Origin: Acidobacteriota bacterium
GTDB taxonomy: Bacteria; Acidobacteriota; Terriglobia; Acidiferrales; UBA7541
Length of the DNA stretch: 36,429 nt
Assembly: GCA_003223215.1 (NCBI GenBank)
Contig: QHYH01000139.1
Coordinates: forward strand, 1 to 36,429
Reading direction: 5' to 3'
Below, in pieces: positions 4,432-30,300 of this stretch (its first letter is position 1; each line of letters opens with the position of its first letter). The notes beneath the pieces were generated by a model that saw only the letters and a list, made by a program, of their open reading frames with translations, searched no databases and was not told the DNA's origin. The translations under genes and the position numbers were made by a program.

Positions 4432-4505
4432 TGGAGGCGCGGGGCGGAATCGAACCGCCGATAAAGGTTTTGCAGACCTTCGCCTTACCACTTGGCTACC
4501 GCGCC
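4432..4505 (-). tRNA. trnC: tRNA-Cys (anticodon GCA)
   Basis: Read on the minus strand, the cloverleaf is complete. The acceptor stem GGCGCGG pairs with CCGCGCC, the D-arm is GCC/GGC, the anticodon stem AAGGT/ACCTT carries the loop CTGCAAA (anticodon GCA), and the T-arm GGCGG/CCGCC carries the loop TTCGATT. The discriminator base is T, and CCA is encoded (4432-4434). It lies 48 bp downstream of the sulfurtransferase gene on the same strand and may share its transcript. No separate good promoter was seen in the gap. Its 3' end is 12 bp from the stop of the convergent deacylase gene. Confidence 0.97.
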
Positions 4506-4553: not shown

Positions 4554-5438
4554 TTAGTGGGCCGTGGCAGCGACGCCTGGTTGCGCGGAGCGCGATTCGT
4601 TCACGATCGGCGCGCCAACCAAATTGCCCCATTCGGTCCACGAGCCGTCGTAATTCCGCACCTTGGCAAAGCCCAGCAAATACTTGAGCACAAACCAGGT
4701 GTGCGAGCTGCGCTCGCCAATGCGGCAATACGCGATGACTTCATCTTTGCCGTTGATGCCCTTGGCTTCATACAGTTTCTTCAAATCGTCGAACGTTTTG
4801 AACGTCCCGTCCTCGTTTGCGGCCTGCGCCCAGGGAATATTGGCGGCCTTGGGGATGTGCCCGGCGCGCTGAGCGGTTTCGCTCATGCCCGGAGGCGCGA
4901 TGATTTTGCCCGTGAACTCGTCAACAGAGCGAACGTCGACCAGTTGGCCGGACTGGCGACCTTCGACCACGGCGGAAACATCTTCTTTGAACGCGCGGAT
5001 GCTTGCATCGGTCGCCGAAACGCGATACGTGGTTGGGCTGACATTCGGGGCATCTTTGGTGAGCGGGCGCTTTTCTTCGAGCCATTTCTTGCGGCCGCCG
5101 TTCATCAGGCGCACGTCCTTGTGGTCGTAAAGCTTTAATTGCCAAAAAGCGTAAGCCGCAAACCAGTTGTTGTTGTCGCCGTAGAGGATGATGGAGGTGT
5201 CGTTGGAAATGCCCGAGGCGCCAAGCAGCTTTTCGAGCGCGGCTTTGTCGATCAAGTCGCGGCGGATGCCGTCTTGAAGCTGCGTTTGCCAGTTCCAGCC
5301 GACAGCGCCGGGGATGTGGCCCTGATCGTAGGCGGTGGTGTCTACGTCCACTTCAACAAAGCGTGTGTTTGGCGCATTGAGATTCTGCGCGGCCCACTCG
5401 GTAGAGACCAGAACTTCCGGATGCTTGTACTCTGTCAT
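4554..5438 (-). CDS. two-domain thiosulfate/mercaptopyruvate sulfurtransferase (rhodanese)
   Basis: This enzyme transfers sulfane sulfur from thiosulfate or 3-mercaptopyruvate to a thiophilic acceptor, through a persulfide on Cys. The 294-residue protein has two rhodanese domains. The N-terminal one is inactive (LYGDNNNWFA, Asp in the Cys position). The C-terminal one has the active loop YCRIGERSSHTWF with C238. This loop and the following YDGSWTEWG are typical of the actinobacterial CysA2/SseC-type enzymes. The start at 5438 (MTEYKHPE) is chosen because the GAGGAG at 5452-5447 lies 8 nt upstream; the ATG at 5444 is only 2 nt from it. No signal peptide is seen, so it is cytoplasmic. A long structured leader with a terminator precedes it, and tRNA-Cys follows. 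Confidence 0.92.
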   Translation of the reverse strand: MTEYKHPEVLVSTEWAAQNLNAPNTRFVEVDVDTTAYDQGHIPGAVGWNWQTQLQDGIRRDLIDKAALEKLLGASGISNDTSIILYGDNNNWFAAYAFWQLKLYDHKDVRLMNGGRKKWLEEKRPLTKDAPNVSPTTYRVSATDASIRAFKEDVSAVVEGRQSGQLVDVRSVDEFTGKIIAPPGMSETAQRAGHIPKAANIPWAQAANEDGTFKTFDDLKKLYEAKGINGKDEVIAYCRIGERSSHTWFVLKYLLGFAKVRNYDGSWTEWGNLVGAPIVNESRSAQPGVAATAH

Positions 5439-5655
5439 TTTCATTTCTCCTCGTTCCCTTAGATGACTAGCTCTGGAATTCGTTTGATCGGCTTCCAACC
5501 AGAAAAACAAAAACCCACCGGCCATTTTTCCCTCTGGCGGTGGGCTCAAAAAACTTGAGGCGGGAGAAATCCTAAATGCTCAGCCTCCCCGCGCCAGAAC
5601 TCACACGCATACAACAGATGCATATTGCGGCGTTGTTCCGGCTGCGAAGTTTCAT
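5439..5655 (-). promoter_or_regulatory. structured leader with attenuator architecture ahead of the sulfurtransferase
   Basis: From the predicted transcription start near 5655, a leader of about 215 nt runs to the sulfurtransferase. It contains an intrinsic terminator (5544-5503). Further upstream, the strand TCTGGCG (minus 5598-5592) is exactly complementary to CGCCAGA (minus 5539-5533), which includes part of the terminator's 5' arm. Terminator and anti-terminator pairings are thus mutually exclusive. An extra stem (GCGGGGAG with CTCCCGC) sits between them. I could not match it to SAM-I, SAM-II, cobalamin or other classes that I know by sequence. Confidence 0.45.
5503..5544 (-). terminator. 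intrinsic terminator inside the sulfurtransferase leader
   Basis: CCCACC/GGTGGG plus GCCA/TGGC form a 10-bp stem with a one-base bulge and a 10-nt loop. On the minus strand it is followed directly by TTTTTGTTTTT (5513-5503). It lies 65 nt upstream of the sulfurtransferase start codon. No gene ends just upstream on this strand, so it more likely regulates the gene than closes another one. Confidence 0.75.
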
Positions 5656-19896: not shown

Positions 19897-20451
19897 ATGT
19901 CCGTCAAGCCAGACCGCTGGATCCGGCGCATGGCGCTGGAGCACAAGATGATCGAGCCGTTCACGGACCGCCAGGTGCGCGAAGGCGTGATCAGTTACGG
20001 AGTGTCTTCCTACGGCTACGACATCCGTGTGGCGGACGAGTTCCGCATTTTCACGAACGTAAACACCACCATTGTCGATCCCAAGCATTTCGATCCGCGA
20101 TCGCTCGTGGAATTCAAAGGCGACGTTTGCATCATTCCTCCGAATTCTTTTGCGCTGGCACGCTCGGTCGAGTATTTCCGCATTCCGCGCAACGTGTTGA
20201 CGGTTTGCGTGGGCAAATCCACCTACGCACGCTGCGGCATCATCGTCAACGTCACGCCCTTCGAGCCGGAGTGGGAAGGCTTCGTAACTCTGGAAATCAG
20301 CAACACCACACCGCTGCCTGCGAAGATTTACGCCAATGAAGGGCTGTGTCAGGTGATTTTCTTTATGTCGGACGAGGAGTGCGAAGTCAGCTACAGGGAT
20401 AAGAAAGGGAAGTATCAGGCACAAGGCGGCATCGTTCTGCCACGTTTGTAG
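19897..20451 (+). CDS. dcd: dCTP deaminase
   Basis: This enzyme deaminates dCTP to dUTP, feeding thymidylate synthesis in the cytoplasm. The 184-residue product carries the trimeric dUTPase-fold motifs: [10 protein letters not shown], the phosphate/substrate loop [10 protein letters not shown] (S108, R112), and [11 protein letters not shown], whose Glu (E133) should be the catalytic base; the C-terminal strand closes with [12 protein letters not shown]. The ATG at 19897 is preferred to the upstream TTG because GGGAGGA sits directly before it and homologues start with MSVKPDRWI. The Cys-free deamination site and the long N-terminal helix fit the monofunctional family. Its 3' end faces the DedA-rhodanese gene. 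Confidence 0.93.
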
Positions 20452-20479
20452 ACCGCGCTCCAGGGGAAGACGATGCAGT

Positions 20480-21427
20480 TTAGGGCGCGCCGGCCAACGG
20501 ATAGCCGCGCTCGCGCCAGGCAGTTAGCCCCCCCTGCAACGGCCGGATGCGCTTGATTCCATTTCTTCTGAGGAGCAGCGCCACACGGGCGCTGGTAGCT
20601 TCGTTCGGTCAAGTACAATAAAGCACCACTTCGCCATCGCGCGGCAAACGATAGTTCTTTTCCTCGAGTTCTTTGGCCTCGATGTGCAGCGCGCCGGGAA
20701 TTGTTTCAGGCTCGGCTTCAAAGTCCAGGGAATGCCTTAAATCAACGATGGTGACTTGCTCACCCGCGTCAATCTTTTCTTTCAGCTCGTCCACCGTGAT
20801 CCGCGCGATGCGCAATTCCCGCAAAAAACGCTGGCGAGCGACAAATTTGTACGCGATATAGGTCCCAAGCGCGCCGGCAAACAATACCAGCAGCCATCCG
20901 CCAAGCGAAGCCAGTTGCGCCGCCACTCGCTCAATCTGCCCGGCGAAAACGTAGCCGATAGCGAGAAACACGCCGGCCCACAGCATGGACCCAATGGCGT
21001 CAAACAGCAGAAAGCGCCGGAAGCGCATGCGAAAAACCCCGGCAAGCGGCGGCGTAACTAATCCCAAACCGGGCAAAAACTTGGCCACCAGGAGCGAGCG
21101 TGCTCCTTGCTTGGAAAACATTCCTTGTGTTCGCCGCACGCAGGAGTCCGGTTCCAGGGAAATCCGGCAAAGGAGCTGGAGAATCTTGATGCCCTTGTGG
21201 CGGCCTAGCTGAAACCATAACGAGTCCGAGGCTAAGGCTCCGAGCACCGTGAACAAGAGTGCGGCGAAGAAATTCAAATGTCCCGTGCCGGCAAGAGCGC
21301 CCGCCGCAAGCAGCAGAGGCATCGCCGGAATGGGCACGCCTAATTGTTCGACAAGAACCCATCCAAACAGCACCGCCAGCCCGTGGTGAATGAGGAACTC
21401 GAAAGCGCGATGTAGGGCTGGGTGCAT
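20480..21427 (-). CDS. DedA-rhodanese fusion with in-frame TGA at the catalytic Cys codon (candidate selenoprotein)
   Basis: Residues 1-200 form a DedA/VTT membrane protein (several hydrophobic segments and the loop FLPGLGLVTPPLAG). Residues 205-315 form a rhodanese domain. After VVLYCT the frame meets TGA (20611-20609, codon 273) and then continues PNEATSARVALLL...GIKRIRPLQGGLTAWRERGYPL to TAA at 20480-20482. Aligning the shared S-A-R-x-A motif with ordinary rhodanese loops (C-x5-SA) places the TGA exactly at the catalytic cysteine. A 7-bp hairpin follows 14 nt later. If TGA is a stop, the protein ends at residue 272 (20609) and lacks a working rhodanese site. Selenocysteine insertion, a nonsense mutation or a base-call error are the three options. 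It starts 13 bp after the nitroreductase stop and so belongs to the MarR operon. Confidence 0.75.
20576..20594 (-). promoter_or_regulatory. candidate bacterial SECIS hairpin
   Basis: On the minus strand CAGCGCC and GGCGCTG make a perfect 7-bp stem around the loop CGTGT. The stem begins 15 nt, and the loop 22 nt, after the in-frame TGA. A G within the first two loop positions and this spacing fit the bacterial SECIS model. The hairpin lies within the coding frame, as bacterial SECIS elements do. Confidence 0.5.
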
Positions 21428-21440
21428 TCCCGTTGCTCGA

Positions 21441-22046
21441 TTATTTCGCGGCGAAGGGAGCGGTGTGCCCCCAACTCCCGGTCATCACGAATTCACGGAT
21501 CGGCTTGCGCATCCGGGGCGCCAGTTCTCGCTCCTTCAGCTTGGGAGGCAGGGTGTCCGGGTCTCCCGGATAACCGATGGCGATGGCCGCAAGGGGCTCC
21601 CACCCTTCCGGGATAGCGAAAGTCTTCCGCGCGCTGTCCGGATCGAAGCCGGCCATCTGGTGAACCGCGAGGCCGCGAGCCGTGGCTTCCACGGACAGCA
21701 AGGCCGTTGCTGCTCCTGTGTCGTATTGCGCGTTGCGGTTGGGGGTGTGATTCTCCGTGAAAGCCAGCTTGGTCACGGCAATTGCAAGCGCGGAAGCACT
21801 CCTGGCCCAACCGGCATTAAACTCTACCAAAGTTCCCAGGACCTTCTCGAAATTTACTTTGTCCTCTTTCGTCGCCACAATATAGGCCCAAGGCTGTTCA
21901 TTAAAGCTGGAGGGCGCCCACCGCGCCGCCTCAAACAGGCTGCGGAGAACCTCTTGCGGGATGGCTTGGTCCGCAAAGGCGCGCGGACTCCAGCGGTTGC
22001 GGAGCAATTCGTGGATGGGAGCGTCGTTTGGCGCCGGTTTTTGCAT
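21441..22046 (-). CDS. nitroreductase-family FMN oxidoreductase
   Basis: The 201-residue flavoprotein is predicted to reduce nitro, quinone or related substrates with NAD(P)H. The family motifs are seen: NRWSPRAFADQAIP near residue 16, the FMN contact EAARWAPSSFNEQPWAYIV, and GLAVHQMAGFDP followed by the GYPGD turn. The ATG at 22046 (MQKPAPND) is preferred over an upstream in-frame start because AAGGAA lies close by and it matches the family's usual length. It is third in the MarR - YceI - nitroreductase - DedA/rhodanese unit, which fits a redox or electrophile stress role (inference). Confidence 0.9.
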   Translation of the reverse strand: MQKPAPNDAPIHELLRNRWSPRAFADQAIPQEVLRSLFEAARWAPSSFNEQPWAYIVATKEDKVNFEKVLGTLVEFNAGWARSASALAIAVTKLAFTENHTPNRNAQYDTGAATALLSVEATARGLAVHQMAGFDPDSARKTFAIPEGWEPLAAIAIGYPGDPDTLPPKLKERELAPRMRKPIREFVMTGSWGHTAPFAAK

Positions 22047-22148
22047 ATGGGTTCCTTTTGCTCCGAGGTCACTTAGATGATCGAAGCCACAACGGCGGTG
22101 CATCCGCGGCGCCCCCGCGATCTCTCGCTGCCATTTGCGTCGAGCCGG

Positions 22149-22772
22149 TTAGTCGCCTGATTTCGCTGCCGGTTTTTGGATCATTTCCACGTCGAGCGTG
22201 ATGTTCACATCGTCTCCCACCACCACGCCCCCGTTATCCAGCTTGGCGTTCCATTTCACGCCATAGTCCTGGCGGTTAATTTTGGTGGTCGCGGTGGCGG
22301 CCAGCCGCTGATTTCCCCAGGGGTCCTTCACGGGATTCGTTGGCCCGTCCACATCGAGTGTCACTTCCCGGCTCGTGCCGCGAATGGTCAGGTCGCCCGT
22401 GACTCTCAATTTTCCCGGAGCGAGCTGTTCCACCTTCTTGGATTTAAAGGTCATGGTGGGAAAGTGGGCCACGTCAAAGAAGCGCTCGCTGCGCAGATCC
22501 TTGTCGCGGTCGGGTTCGCGCGTGTCCACAGTGTTTACGTCGATGGTCACTTCAACGCTGGATTTCGTGATGTCCTGGTCATCGAGCACCATTGTGCCGC
22601 TCAGCTTGCTGAACGCGCCGCGCACCGTGGAAAGGCCCAAATGACGTACGGCAAATTGCGCGGAGGAGTGCTGCGGGTCAATTTGCCATGTGGATGTGGC
22701 CGCCCGGGCGGGCAGAGAGAGCCCCACGGCCATGCCAGCAACCACTGCAATGCGAGAGAGGTACCGGTTCAT
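22149..22772 (-). CDS. YceI-family periplasmic lipocalin-like protein
   Basis: The 207-residue product has a signal peptide (MNRYLSRIAVVAGMAVGLSLPARA-A) and the YceI barrel motifs: WQIDPQHSSAQFAVRHLG, TVRGAFSKLSGTM, DKDLRSERFFDVAHFPTMTFKS and LTIRGTSREVTLDV. Family members bind polyisoprenoid chains such as ubiquinone-like molecules in the periplasm. GGAAGG lies about 9 nt upstream of the ATG. It follows the MarR gene by 52 bp and precedes the nitroreductase by about 100 bp, all on one strand. Binding a quinone or an isoprenoid would suit the redox theme of the operon. Confidence 0.93.
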   Translation of the reverse strand: MNRYLSRIAVVAGMAVGLSLPARAATSTWQIDPQHSSAQFAVRHLGLSTVRGAFSKLSGTMVLDDQDITKSSVEVTIDVNTVDTREPDRDKDLRSERFFDVAHFPTMTFKSKKVEQLAPGKLRVTGDLTIRGTSREVTLDVDGPTNPVKDPWGNQRLAATATTKINRQDYGVKWNAKLDNGGVVVGDDVNITLDVEMIQKPAAKSGD

Positions 22773-22824: not shown

Positions 22825-23286
22825 CTACTCCCGCTTGGCAGGGCGGATCTGTTCGAGCAGGTCGTAAAGAGCCTTCAACCTCCCGCCGGCCATGTGCCGG
22901 AACTGCCGCTTGTGCAAATTCCGCATCGGCTGGTCCAGCGGCTTCAGGAGTTCGAGTCCACGAGCCGTCATGCGCGCCTTCACCACGCGGCGGTCGTCCT
23001 TCTGCCGCTCGCGGGTGATCCAACCCTGTTTTTCCAAGCGGTCCAAAAGCCGCGTGATGTCCGGATCGTGGGTGATCATACGGTCGGCAATGGCGCGGCA
23101 GGCGAGGCCTTCGGGTCCGGCTCCCCGCAGGATCCGCAGGACGTTGTACTGGGTGCCGGTCAATTCCGCGGTGCGCGTCAGTTGCTCCGCCTGTTGCCCC
23201 AGGGCGTCGGCGGTCTTGAGCATGGCGAGAAAGACGCGCTCTTCAAGGGAGGCGGGCGGGTGCGCCGGCTTGCTCCGGAGGTTCAC
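22825..23286 (-). CDS. MarR-family transcriptional regulator
   Basis: This is a dimeric winged-helix repressor. The 153-residue form starts at GTG 23286. The recognition region runs LTGTQYNVLRILRGAG...ACRAIADRMITHDPDITRLLDRLEKQGWITRE, followed by the wing DRRVVKARMTARG. A longer reading from TTG at 23322 is rejected because that codon overlaps the -35 hexamer of the promoter. With the -10 at 23299-23294, transcription should begin within a base or two of the GTG, so the mRNA may be leaderless. The palindrome between -35 and -10 is the likely autoregulatory operator. It heads an operon with YceI, nitroreductase and DedA-rhodanese. Confidence 0.9.
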   Translation of the reverse strand: MNLRSKPAHPPASLEERVFLAMLKTADALGQQAEQLTRTAELTGTQYNVLRILRGAGPEGLACRAIADRMITHDPDITRLLDRLEKQGWITRERQKDDRRVVKARMTARGLELLKPLDQPMRNLHKRQFRHMAGGRLKALYDLLEQIRPAKRE

Positions 23287-23292
23287 GAAGCT

Positions 23293-23322
23293 GATAATAG
23301 TCGTGTAAACGACTATTGTCAA
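23293..23322 (-). promoter_or_regulatory. promoter and palindromic operator of the MarR operon
   Basis: On the minus strand TTGACA (23322-23317) and TATTAT (23299-23294) are 17 bp apart, close to the sigma70 consensus. The inverted repeat GATAATAGTCGT - GTAA - ACGACTATTGTC (23293-23320, one mismatch in 12-bp arms) fills the space between the hexamers. Repressor binding would exclude polymerase. This is typical MarR autoregulation. Confidence 0.8.
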
Positions 23323-23358: not shown

Positions 23359-24105
23359 CTAGGCCTTGCGCAGCGTGCGCAATTGAATTTCGCTCAAAAC
23401 GCTTCCCGGCCTTTGCGTCACAATCGCTTGAACGGCGTGCGCCACGTCGTCCGGGCTTAACGCTTTGGCGGGGTTTTTCGGCCCGCTGCCCGCAAATTCA
23501 GTGGCTACGCTTCCCGGGCAGACCACGCTCACGCGGATGCCGTGCTCCCGCAAGTCTTCCATCATGCAGCCCGACAAGCCCATCAGCCCCCATTTAGAAG
23601 CGCAGTAAATCCCACCCCCTGCAAACGTGTTTCTCCCCGCCAGGGAGCTGATATTAATGATGTCTCCCGAGCCGCGCCGGATCATCGAAGGAACCGCCGC
23701 CCGCGAAACCAGAAAAACGCCTTTGAGATTGGTATTCACAACGCGGTCCCAATCCGCCTCGGTTTTTTCATGAGCCGGGCCAAACAGACCGATCCCTGCG
23801 TTATTCACCAGGATGTTAATCGAGCCCAGCGCCGCATCCGCTTCGGCGACCAGTGCGGAGACCTGTTTGGCATCGGTGACGTCGGTAATATGAAAAAACG
23901 CGCGCGCGCCCAGTTTCTCCAGCTCTGCCGCGACACGTTCCAAGGCCGCCCGGTCCCTGCCGCAAATCGCTACCGAAGCGCCCAGCATTGCCAGACGATG
24001 CGCGATCGCGCGGCCGACGCCGCGGCTCCCTCCGGTAACCAGCGCGACACTTCCCGCGAGCCGTTTTTCCTTCCGTCCGCCATTTGCGTTATTTATCCCA
24101 GCCAT
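23359..24105 (-). CDS. short-chain dehydrogenase/reductase (SDR)
   Basis: The 248-residue NAD(P)-dependent oxidoreductase has classical SDR motifs: TGGSRGVG (24-31) for the cofactor, NNAG (101-104), and the catalytic Ser in NISS (S154) with Y167-C-A-S-K171. CPGSVATEF follows. The Arg in the glycine-rich loop favours NADP(H). The substrate is not readable. The ATG at 24105 is chosen because GAGGAAG lies 7 nt upstream; a much longer open frame has no such site. It ends 36 bp before the MarR operon promoter and is transcribed in the same direction. It is divergent from the TPR gene at 24395. Confidence 0.9.
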   Translation of the reverse strand: MAGINNANGGRKEKRLAGSVALVTGGSRGVGRAIAHRLAMLGASVAICGRDRAALERVAAELEKLGARAFFHITDVTDAKQVSALVAEADAALGSINILVNNAGIGLFGPAHEKTEADWDRVVNTNLKGVFLVSRAAVPSMIRRGSGDIINISSLAGRNTFAGGGIYCASKWGLMGLSGCMMEDLREHGIRVSVVCPGSVATEFAGSGPKNPAKALSPDDVAHAVQAIVTQRPGSVLSEIQLRTLRKA

Positions 24106-24267
24106 GAGAATTCTTCCTCGCACGGGCGACTCTTTTTGTGCGAAACTCATCCTATCATCAGAGGTTTCTGCGGTGGCGTTCGTCCCGTTCGCTGCAGCGG
24201 AAATGAGTGAGAAGCGGCCCTGCCGCACCCAGGAAAGATCATCAGGAACTTCGTCGAGGATAACGGC

Positions 24268-27393: not shown

Positions 27394-30300
27394 TTACGCC
27401 GCGGAAACGGCCGTTGCTTTCGCACCGGCATTTTCGTTCCCCGTTTCTTCCCAGCGCACGCTGACCAGCTTGGAAACGCCCGGCTCCTGCATGGTCACGC
27501 CGTAGAGCACCGGGGCAATTTCCATGGTCTTGCGGTTGTGCGTGACGACAATGAATTGCGTTTGGCTGCTCATCTCACCAATCAATTTTGTGAACCGCCC
27601 GACGTTCGCTTCGTCCAGCGGCGCATCGACTTCGTCCAGGATGCAGAACGGGCTCGGCTGGTAGCGGAAAATCGCGATCAGCAGCGCCAGCGCCGTCATG
27701 GCCTTCTCGCCGCCAGAGAGCAGCAGCACGTTCTGCAGCCGCTTCCCTGGAGGAGACGCGACGATGTCAATACCCGCATCACCCGAGCTGTCCGGCTCCG
27801 TCAACCGCATCTCCGCCATGCCGCCGCCAAAAATCGCGTGGAATGCATCCGAGAAGCTTTTGTTAATCGCGTGGAATGCGTGCTCGAACTTCTCTTTCGT
27901 CGCTTGATCGAGTTCCACGATGGCCTGCTGCGTGTCGGCCATCGATTTCAGCAAATCATCGCGTTCTCGCGTCAGGAACGTGAACCGCTGCTCGCACTCG
28001 TTGAATTCCTCGAGCGCCATCATGTTGACCGCTCCCATATTCTCGACCCGCTGCTTCATCTCGCGATAGTTCGCTTCCGCAGCGGCTAGCTCTTCGCCGC
28101 TCATGAACGCCGTTTCCGTGGCAATCAAGTCCTCTGGCTGCGCGTTTACTTCGCTCATGCAGGACTCGCGCAAGTGCCCCCGATCCGACTCGTTTTTCGC
28201 GCGCTCCACTTCGGAATGATTGCGTTGTTCTCGCAACTCCTGTAGCTGTTGCCGCGCCATCCGCAGATGGTCTTCTGTCTCGGTCACGCGCGTGCGCGCC
28301 GACTCCCACTCCTGCTCGAGTTCCTTCTGCCGCACTTCCAGCCGCAGCTTTTCCGCGCGCAGCCCATCCAGTTGCTGCGTCAGCTCTTCGCTCTGCTTCG
28401 CCAGGCCAGCAGTCTCGTCGCCGAGGGACAGTACCTGTTGCTGCAGCGTGGTCTCGCGGCGCTCCATTTCCGTCCGCTCTTCGCGCAGCCGTGTCGCCAA
28501 GGCTTCTGCAGCAGCCAGCCGCTCATTAATCGCCGCCAGTCCCGCGCGTGCCGTAGCAAGTTCGTGCTGTTCGCTTTGCACCGACCCGCGTAGCCCAACC
28601 AGTCGGTCCGCCAGCCGGGTGCTTTCCGTTTCCGCCCCGGCGCGATCTAGCGCCGCCGCGGCGTGGTCGTGTTTCGCGCGTTCCGTGCGCTGCCGCGCGC
28701 CCTCCGCTTCTTTGCGCACGCGCGCCAGTTCGCCTTGGCAAACGGCCAGCTCCGCTCCCAGCCTCGCTAACTCCGTTTGCATGTGGCTGTGGCGGTGCTG
28801 CACGGAGATCGCCTCGCGCTCCACGTCGCGCTGCGTCGCGCTGATTTGTTCCAGCGCTTGTTCGGTTGCGCGCAACTCCGCGGCCGCCGCTGCCAGCGCA
28901 GCCTGCTTTTCGTTCATCCGGTGTTCGAGCCGCAACAGTTCGGCATTCAACGCCCGCAATTCGCGCTTCATGCCAAGCGGCCCCGCCTCGCCCGGACGCC
29001 CGCCGGTGACCATACGGCCCTGATAGCACGTCCCGTCCGGCGTGACGAACGCGTATTGCGGATTCTCCCGCGCCAGTTTTTCCGCGGCCGCCGCGCTGTC
29101 GGTCAAATACGCCGCGCGCAGCCTCGGCAGGAACTGTTTGGCCGCCGCGCCTAGCGGATTGCGAAATTCCACGAGCTTGTCCATCCGCGAAATCACTCCG
29201 TCTTCGCGGTGGAAATTGGCAATCGGCTCGTACTCGTTTTCGAGCCGCAGATTGCGCAGCGAATCCACGAAGAACGTGGCCCTGCCGCCCACTTCATCAC
29301 GCAGCATGGAAATGCCCGTACGGGCATGGTCGAATGTCTCCACGACGACAAATTCCAACTCATCACGGAGGAACTGCTCGATCGCCGCTTCGTGCCCCTC
29401 TTCGACCTCCGCGTAATCCGCCAGCACGCCAACGGCCCGGAATTGCTGCCCGCCGCCTCGTTCGTTCGCTGCAAAAAGCTTTTGCACGGCTTCCGCCGTG
29501 TACGACCGGTCGTTCAAAATCTGCGTTAGCGTCGAATGCCGTGCCCGCACGCTCGCCAGCGCATCGCGCAGCGCGTCGGCTTCTTTTGTCAACCCGTCGC
29601 GCTGCTCGCGTAATCCGCCAATCTTCGCTTGCAGCTCCGCGGCATTTTGCTTCAACGCGCCAAGCTGCTCGGTAACCGCTTCCAGTTCATGAGCGACGCG
29701 GTCGGCGTCGTCACGCGCGCGCATTGAGGTTTCAAGCATCTCGTGCTCGTTCGTTTCCAGTTTTCGCACCGCTTCGGTTTGGTGCACCAGCGCTTCTTCC
29801 GCCTGTTTCTGCTCGCCGTGCAACCGCAGCAAACTTTCGCCGGCCTCCGACGCGCGTTGCCGCAGCGCCTCGATCCCCCCTTCGGCATCCCGAATCTCGA
29901 CCGCGCGTTGCTCCACGCGCTGCAAAAGCTCCTCGACGCGGCCGTTCAGCGCGCCCGACTCTTCGCGCAGCAGCGTCACCGCCTGCACCTGCGTCGCGCT
30001 GCGCATTTCCCATTCCGCAGCTTGCGCCCGCGCTTGCTTCAGCTCCGCATCCATTTGGGCGTGGCGCCCCGCCAGCTCCTGCGCCCGCTGCCGGTTGAAC
30101 GCAATGCGGTTCTCGCTGCGGTCCGCTTCCAGCGCCGTCAGGTTCAGCACGTTCTGGTTCTGCCGGAGTTCCGCATCCAGTTCGTATATGCGCTGATTCA
30201 GCCTGTCCTGCTCGCCTTCCATCTGCTGGATGGCCGCCGCTCGCTCGGTTTCCACCGCGCTCAGCTCTTCCAATTGCTTGCCAATTCTCTCCGCAGCGGC

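Follow-up and report, generated by a model that had tools for sequence, protein, structure and literature searches.

The window (the whole 36,429-nucleotide stretch of DNA that was analysed) carries on its minus strand a gene for a predicted membrane protein, in which a DedA-type (VTT) domain is followed by a rhodanese domain whose coding sequence contains an in-frame TGA. The gene and its surroundings comprise the following features:

20480..21427, minus strand: CDS of the DedA(VTT)-rhodanese protein, very probably a selenoprotein; 315 residues and a TAA stop, selenocysteine (Sec) predicted at codon 273
20609..20611, minus strand: in-frame TGA, read as Sec (residue 273) from the identity of this codon in relatives
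20615..20617, minus strand: Cys271, partner of Sec273 (CxU or CxC), invariant in an alignment of 56 rows
20576..20594, minus strand: putative bacterial SECIS-type hairpin with a 7-bp stem (arms 20588-20594 and 20576-20582, loop CGTGT at 20583-20587)
20510..20797, minus strand: rhodanese domain with the Cys271-Thr-Sec273 motif (PF00581, 51.2 bits against a cut-off of 22.2; residues 211-306)
20951..21331, minus strand: VTT (DedA) membrane domain (PF09335, 63.0 bits against a cut-off of 33.9; residues 33-159)
21140..21169, minus strand: motif CRISLEPDSC of the VTT domain with Cys87 and Cys96, each invariant in the 56-row alignment and in 26 of 26 further loci
21441..22103, minus strand: nitroreductase-family gene (PF00881), 13 bp upstream and probably in the same operon
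22149..22772, minus strand: YceI-like gene (PF04264)
22825..23322, minus strand: MarR-family regulator gene (PF01047)
23359..24228, minus strand: short-chain dehydrogenase (SDR) gene (PF00106), head of the conserved block

The CDS starts with the ATG at 21427 and ends with the TAA at 20480-20482. Around the TGA the frame reads VVLYCT-TGA-PNEATSARVALLLRRNGIKRIRPLQGGLTAWRERGYPLAGAP and then TAA, so that 42 sense codons separate TGA and TAA, as a preliminary description of this DNA had noted. The span given there, 20480-20620, marks the correct site but just the tail of the gene. The length of 315 residues assumes that the TGA is read through, and the protein analysed was its first 314. VTT and rhodanese domains lie in one chain, both above their Pfam cut-offs, which makes the protein a DedA-rhodanese fusion and bears out the earlier claim of an in-frame TGA inside such a fusion (minus strand, codon 273). 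An AlphaFold model built with 56 aligned sequences reached a mean pLDDT of 89.1 and a pTM of 0.81, and its C-terminal part superimposed on the rhodanese structure 3tp9_A with a Z-score of 18.1 and an rmsd of 1.5 over 108 aligned residues.

The block of genes recurs in the nearest loci with long flanks, both where the fusion gene has TGA (L054, L056 and L057) and where it has Cys (L058 and L059). In L055, a TGA form, it is present without a YceI match. This recurrence is consistent with an SDR-MarR-YceI-nitroreductase-selenoprotein operon; that the MarR-type regulator controls it would be a guess. Elsewhere in the window, an ORF at 4554-5549 (minus strand) encodes a tandem two-domain rhodanese (domain matches at 4626-4955 and 5076-5405) and adjoins a tRNA-Cys gene at 4432-4505.

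The host assembly (8.8 Mb, 97.65% complete, 1.96% contamination) contains the whole machinery for Sec insertion that the preliminary description had proposed to look for, each component above its curated cut-off: selB (contig C279, 354 bits against 242), selA (contig C232, 568 against 268), selD (contig C89, 351 against 125) and one tRNA-Sec above the gathering score (contig C79, 65.4 bits against 47), called by ARAGORN as tRNA-SeC with anticodon TCA (UCA). The selD gene (L012, G000:C89:13265-14227) has an in-frame TGA of its own in the context AAGUAAKLSP, which we take to be the usual Sec/Cys site of SelD, and likely encodes a selenoprotein itself.

We then compared codon 273 among relatives. 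Within the order, 66 of 95 genomes had a match at E <= 1e-20, and the 63 loci sampled stand for 64 of the 71 listed matches, while the other 7 end short of codon 273. An alignment at residue 273 was obtained for 62 loci, giving 45 TGA (window gene included) and 17 TGC or TGT. The unscored locus, L134, is a broken copy: in its genome (G013; L061 / L134) the DedA and rhodanese parts are separate matches, the DedA part with a TAG, while the rhodanese part keeps one TGA. A search of the class added 60 loci, 46 of them listed with one TGA and 14 with none. Among 122 different coding sequences, window gene included, codon 273 was TGA in 91, TGC in 23, TGT in 8 and nothing else; as the loci were chosen, the 91:31 ratio is not a frequency, and it is the position that counts. 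Across the phylum, matches at E <= 1e-60 came from 66 of 396 genomes. Twenty-five of these lie outside the class of the window; the listing shows a TGA for 21 of the 25 and an intact frame for 3, and in the remaining one the match ends before codon 273. A further 26 loci had TGA exactly at codon 273 in 23 cases and Cys in 3; 22 of these 23 TGA genes come from 21 genomes of 10 families outside the class, and 1 from inside it. TAA, TAG or a third residue was found at codon 273 in none of the 122 and 26 loci scored, so that the proposed homologue alignment returned TGA or Cys (TGC/TGT) in every gene scored. In a collection of named genomes, which gave 58 loci, TGA is found in four gp2 Acidobacteria (L054-L057), and Cys (YCTCPNEA) in Proteobacteria, Dyella among them; the Cys count from this collection is biased, one search pattern having contained YCTCPNEA, and was not used, and L106 is out of frame there.

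The TGA form tends to occur together with selB. Outside the order a selB match was present in 42 of 46 TGA genomes versus 13 of 34 Cys-labelled genomes (p = 4.6e-7), where 21 of the 34 Cys labels stand for 'no stop inside' in the search listing, the codon itself not having been inspected. This comparison covered 80 of the 88 first-listed genomes, the 8 left out all being labelled Cys-form. Inside the order the association was weak (42 of 46 TGA versus 11 of 15 Cys genomes, p = 0.09), where G013 was entered as TGA from the search listing, its own copy being broken and unscorable. Both p-values are a guide at most, the genomes being related and not independent, and the selB match of G292, scored as present, lies below the family cut-off. 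Eight TGA genomes gave no selB match at E cut-offs of 1e-70 and 1e-60, which would miss fragments; two of the selB-negative ones, G038 and G295, are 94% complete. Many of the other relatives, with Cys in place of Sec, keep selB.

The sequence past the TGA is conserved in TGA relatives, with none of the decay that the preliminary description had named as a refuting sign. In 15 close TGA relatives, amino-acid identity to the window protein rose from 77% ahead of the TGA to 90% past it, and in 63 distant ones from 50% to 69%. Differences past the TGA followed the pattern of a translated frame, at 0.10, 0.07 and 0.34 per first, second and third codon position in the close relatives; the corresponding values in the distant ones were 0.26, 0.20 and 0.50.

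On a tree of 121 rows made with codon 273 masked, the TGA/Cys label required 13 changes, compared with a mean of 26.9 for shuffled labels, and at least 7 of the 13 are forced by starred branches. The tree was made by a quick method and leaves out the short row L141. Two of the 31 Cys genes, both with TGT, look like recent Sec-to-Cys replacements on sequence grounds: L191, sister to the TGA gene L150, has kept the complete hairpin, and L045 has kept the stem with a changed loop. The nearly closed genome G358 carries TGA-form and Cys-form DedA-rhodanese genes together (L190 and L193), the TGA copy having the loop GGTCT, not CGTGT.

The hairpin downstream of the TGA, CAGCGCC-CGTGT-GGCGCTG, begins 14 nt past the TGA, that is at the 15th nucleotide, as the preliminary description had it, and its loop lies 21 nt past the TGA. 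The published bSECIS model asks for a loop of 3-9 nt, a stem of 4-16 bp, a G in the first two loop positions, a UGA-to-loop distance of 16-37 nt and an MFE of at most -7.5 (PMC13188914, in the text available). The window hairpin fits this model, with a loop of 5 nt (CGTGT), a stem of 7 bp, a distance of 21 nt and -12.5 kcal/mol. Folded alone it is unremarkable (MFE -12.5 kcal/mol, z -0.86), 38 of 200 shuffled sequences folding as well. An Rfam search of 20400-20750 gave zero matches even at E 10, a result that carries little weight because bacterial SECIS elements are diverse.

The case for the hairpin comes from the comparative and synonymous-redraw tests, not from single-sequence folding. 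At fixed columns, all seven pairs formed in 68 of 89 distinct TGA-gene stretches versus 2 of 31 Cys genes, the mean number of paired columns being 6.7 versus 4.5. When the codons of the TGA proteins were redrawn synonymously, all seven pairs appeared on average in 2.3 and at most in 10 of the 89, and the mean number of pairs was 4.0 (maximum 4.4 in 300 draws); redrawn Cys proteins gave 4.1. Every one of the 89 TGA stretches has a G within the first two loop positions, GCC for Ala280 and GCG for Ala283; in the 31 Cys genes Ala280 varies between GCG, GCC and GCT, and Ala283 between GCG, GCC, GCA and GCT. The outer pair, made of two third codon positions, is C-G in 56 TGA stretches and G-C in 16. 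Its mutual information in TGA genes was above that of all 5000 shuffles, and the value in Cys genes was reached by 1821 of 5000. In L225 the fourth pair is U-A instead of C-G, again at synonymous sites. These comparisons show, at the level of sequence, that the hairpin is more than chance and tracks the TGA in most genes. In the 23 further TGA genes, of which almost all lie outside the class, seven pairs formed in 6, six in 7 and five or four in 10; the last ten (L232-L240 and L245) pair no better than Cys genes, so in distant TGA genes the common register is weaker or the element differs. The TGA genes L232-L238, L185 and L188 share a stretch ARVAR(L/M/Q)L(M/I)D and, in the common register, have the stem partly paired; they may possess a SECIS of another shape.

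Because the Sec machinery is present, TGA and Cys alternate at one codon, and the hairpin is linked to the TGA through frozen synonymous codons and compensatory changes, the window gene is very probably a selenoprotein gene. We regard it as close to certain that the TGA at 20609-20611 inserts Sec. SelA, SelB, SelD and tRNA-Sec of the cell would decode the TGA as Sec, directed by the SECIS hairpin just downstream. The product would be a full-length membrane protein with a DedA/VTT domain and a rhodanese domain carrying Cys271-x-Sec273. As a whole, SECIS-directed Sec giving this full-length protein is the best explanation, and we consider it highly likely. Sec insertion is here deduced from sequence comparison, selenium content and the read-through peptide being predicted.

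Which residue of the pair acts as the nucleophile is less clear-cut. The preliminary description put the TGA at the catalytic Cys of the rhodanese loop. That is one possible alignment, but Cys271, two residues upstream, gives a second one: across the 56 aligned sequences it is as invariant as residue 273, which is Cys or Sec. The protein may thus be a selenoprotein in which Cys271 takes the part of the classical rhodanese nucleophile, with Sec273 resolving, or in which the domain is no sulfurtransferase, a serious contender that we nevertheless hold to be the less probable arrangement. In the model, the strand 266-270 ends just ahead of Cys271 and a helix begins at 274, directly past residue 273, which would suit a nucleophile at 271. 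The PDB divides on this point. A phmmer search of the rhodanese domain against the PDB gave nothing at E 0.01, and the matches came from a profile search. In the five PDB chains shown, the catalytic-loop Cys in register falls on Sec273 in four of seven domains (6mxv twice, 1yt8 domain 2 and 3iwh) and on Cys271 in three (3tp9, 6pfz and 1yt8 domain 4). Against Cys271 as nucleophile speak also the spacing of 25 residues from Sec273 to GG, equal to that from Cys to GG in the ordinary rhodanese L209 of the same genome (counted by eye), and the fact that the residue turned into Sec is 273, not 271.

With Sec273 as the preferred nucleophile, the rhodanese domain would face the cytoplasm and Sec273 would attack a sulfane-sulfur or disulfide substrate, Cys271 resolving the Sec-S intermediate. 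At the membrane, the pair would then provide a thiol/selenol centre that is fast and resists oxidation. That the CxU pair carries out sulfane-sulfur or thiol chemistry is plausible, if somewhat short of an even bet. In the VTT domain, the invariant Cys87 and Cys96 might act as redox partners or as a metal or sulfur relay; a relay from the CxU pair to these two residues is a speculative step that we think rather doubtful. The CRISLEPDSC motif is absent from the three other VTT proteins found in the same genome. Compared by eye with one of these paralogues, L205, the window protein shows PAM in place of PGD, and GL where L205 has the RT of ARFVPIIRT. A survey of DedA proteins links flippase function to acidic residues at the first re-entrant tip and basic ones at the second (PMC10127716, in the text available). 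Since PGD and RT of L205 are replaced, a role of the window VTT domain as a plain undecaprenyl-phosphate flippase, the DedA function of COG0586, is doubtful, judged from these residues. More far-reaching, and in our view unlikely, would be an undescribed phylum-wide class of membrane selenoenzymes, in which Cys271-Sec273 trades electrons or sulfane sulfur with Cys87/Cys96 in a VTT domain seemingly without the canonical flippase residues. If this were true, DedA would take part in redox reactions as the membrane partner, much as DsbD- or VKOR-type systems function, and, with a YceI gene close by, the substrate could possibly be a quinone or an isoprenoid lipid.

Three other readings concern the TGA itself. 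Bacterial Sec insertion generally competes with termination, and the VTT domain is complete ahead of the TGA. Frequent termination at the UGA might therefore yield a functional DedA-only short form, making Sec insertion a selenium-dependent switch. We judge such a dual product improbable: relatives have changed repeatedly between TGA and Cys, and a Cys would abolish any switch, while the short form of 272 residues would retain about 60 residues of an incomplete rhodanese domain.

A genuine stop, in a decaying or truncated gene copy or through a sequencing or assembly error, is hardly credible. It would agree with ordinary ORF calling, which terminates the gene at the TGA, and in the relative G013 the gene copy is indeed broken, showing a TAG and a change of frame. 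Yet the hairpin tracks the TGA, conservation is higher past it than before, and 91 of 122 genes and 23 further ones share the TGA at this codon, where no scored gene has TAA or TAG. With the same TGA in 90 others of the 122 and the 23 further genes, a sequencing error is untenable, and we rejected pseudogene and sequencing error alike, the TGA being conserved at one codon across genera. Genome-wide reassignment of TGA (e.g. to Trp) or general read-through, to which the in-frame TGA in selD might point, has a negligible chance of being right and was rejected, as that TGA sits at the presumed Sec/Cys site, relatives (L027, L028, L029 and others) end this same gene in TGA, and the alternative residue across the scored genes is Cys, never Trp.

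SECIS-directed Sec insertion into the fusion protein remains the reading to set against known systems. The best NCBIfam match of the window protein is NF041203 (rhodanese_LYCAU, 'rhodanese-related (seleno)protein'), likewise a rhodanese domain with C-x-U. At 83.9 bits, below the curated cut-off of 115, the window protein is a relative and not a member; the 126 positions of the model leave room for a rhodanese only, whereas the window protein additionally has the VTT domain. A review gives five forms of rhodanese selenoprotein (PMC13188914; this and the following papers as far as their text was available). NF041203 is its form 3, CxU, as in the window motif VVLYCTU. Form 5, TsoB (NF045694), is by name also a rhodanese selenoprotein fused to an apparent membrane domain, but its description, UxxxxU with two Sec and a DsbD-like part, sets it apart from the window protein. 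The words DedA and VTT are absent from the available text of this review. Fusions of DedA and rhodanese with Cys are known (PF09335+PF00581, PMC10127716; P. aeruginosa PA1209, PMC12893004) and have the domain order of the window protein, and the homologues we fetched from Proteobacteria have Cys where the window protein has Sec. The accessible text of neither paper mentions a selenoprotein version, and no such fusion is described in what was available of five other surveys (PMC1794560, PMC9312934, PMC1088965, PMC5029168 and PMC12013277). The deep-Sep paper, in its available part, gives three known selenoprotein genes in the acidobacterium Occallatibacter riparius. DedA-rhodanese fusions in the Cys form are thus already known, as are CxU rhodanese selenoproteins that stand alone, and the Sec fusion is new within the literature searched, in which we found no description of it; an earlier account, for instance in NCBI annotation, is possible.

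With this fusion, the rhodanese selenoproteins gain an architecture anchored in the membrane, and the Sec form of the fusion is widespread in the phylum of the window, in many related soil bacteria. Automatic annotation would truncate the protein and lose the rhodanese domain. Repeated switching between Sec and Cys provides natural pairs for asking what selenium buys. The DedA survey terms the reason for the DedA-rhodanese fusion unclear (PMC10127716, available text), and the Sec fusion offers a handle on why DedA proteins were joined to rhodaneses.

The same genome holds a second rhodanese selenoprotein candidate, small and stand-alone (L216:1483-1800, minus strand; G000:C135, about 28435-28752), with TGA at both positions of the CxU motif (FYUGUPGEASA). 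The term 'UxU' is absent from the available text of the 2026 review (PMC13188914). At E <= 1e-20 the candidate and its relatives L218 and L219, the latter with YUAU, were found in 3 of 399 class genomes, its own included. All three genes have two TGA codons each and a downstream hairpin of 6-7 bp with the loop GGTCA.
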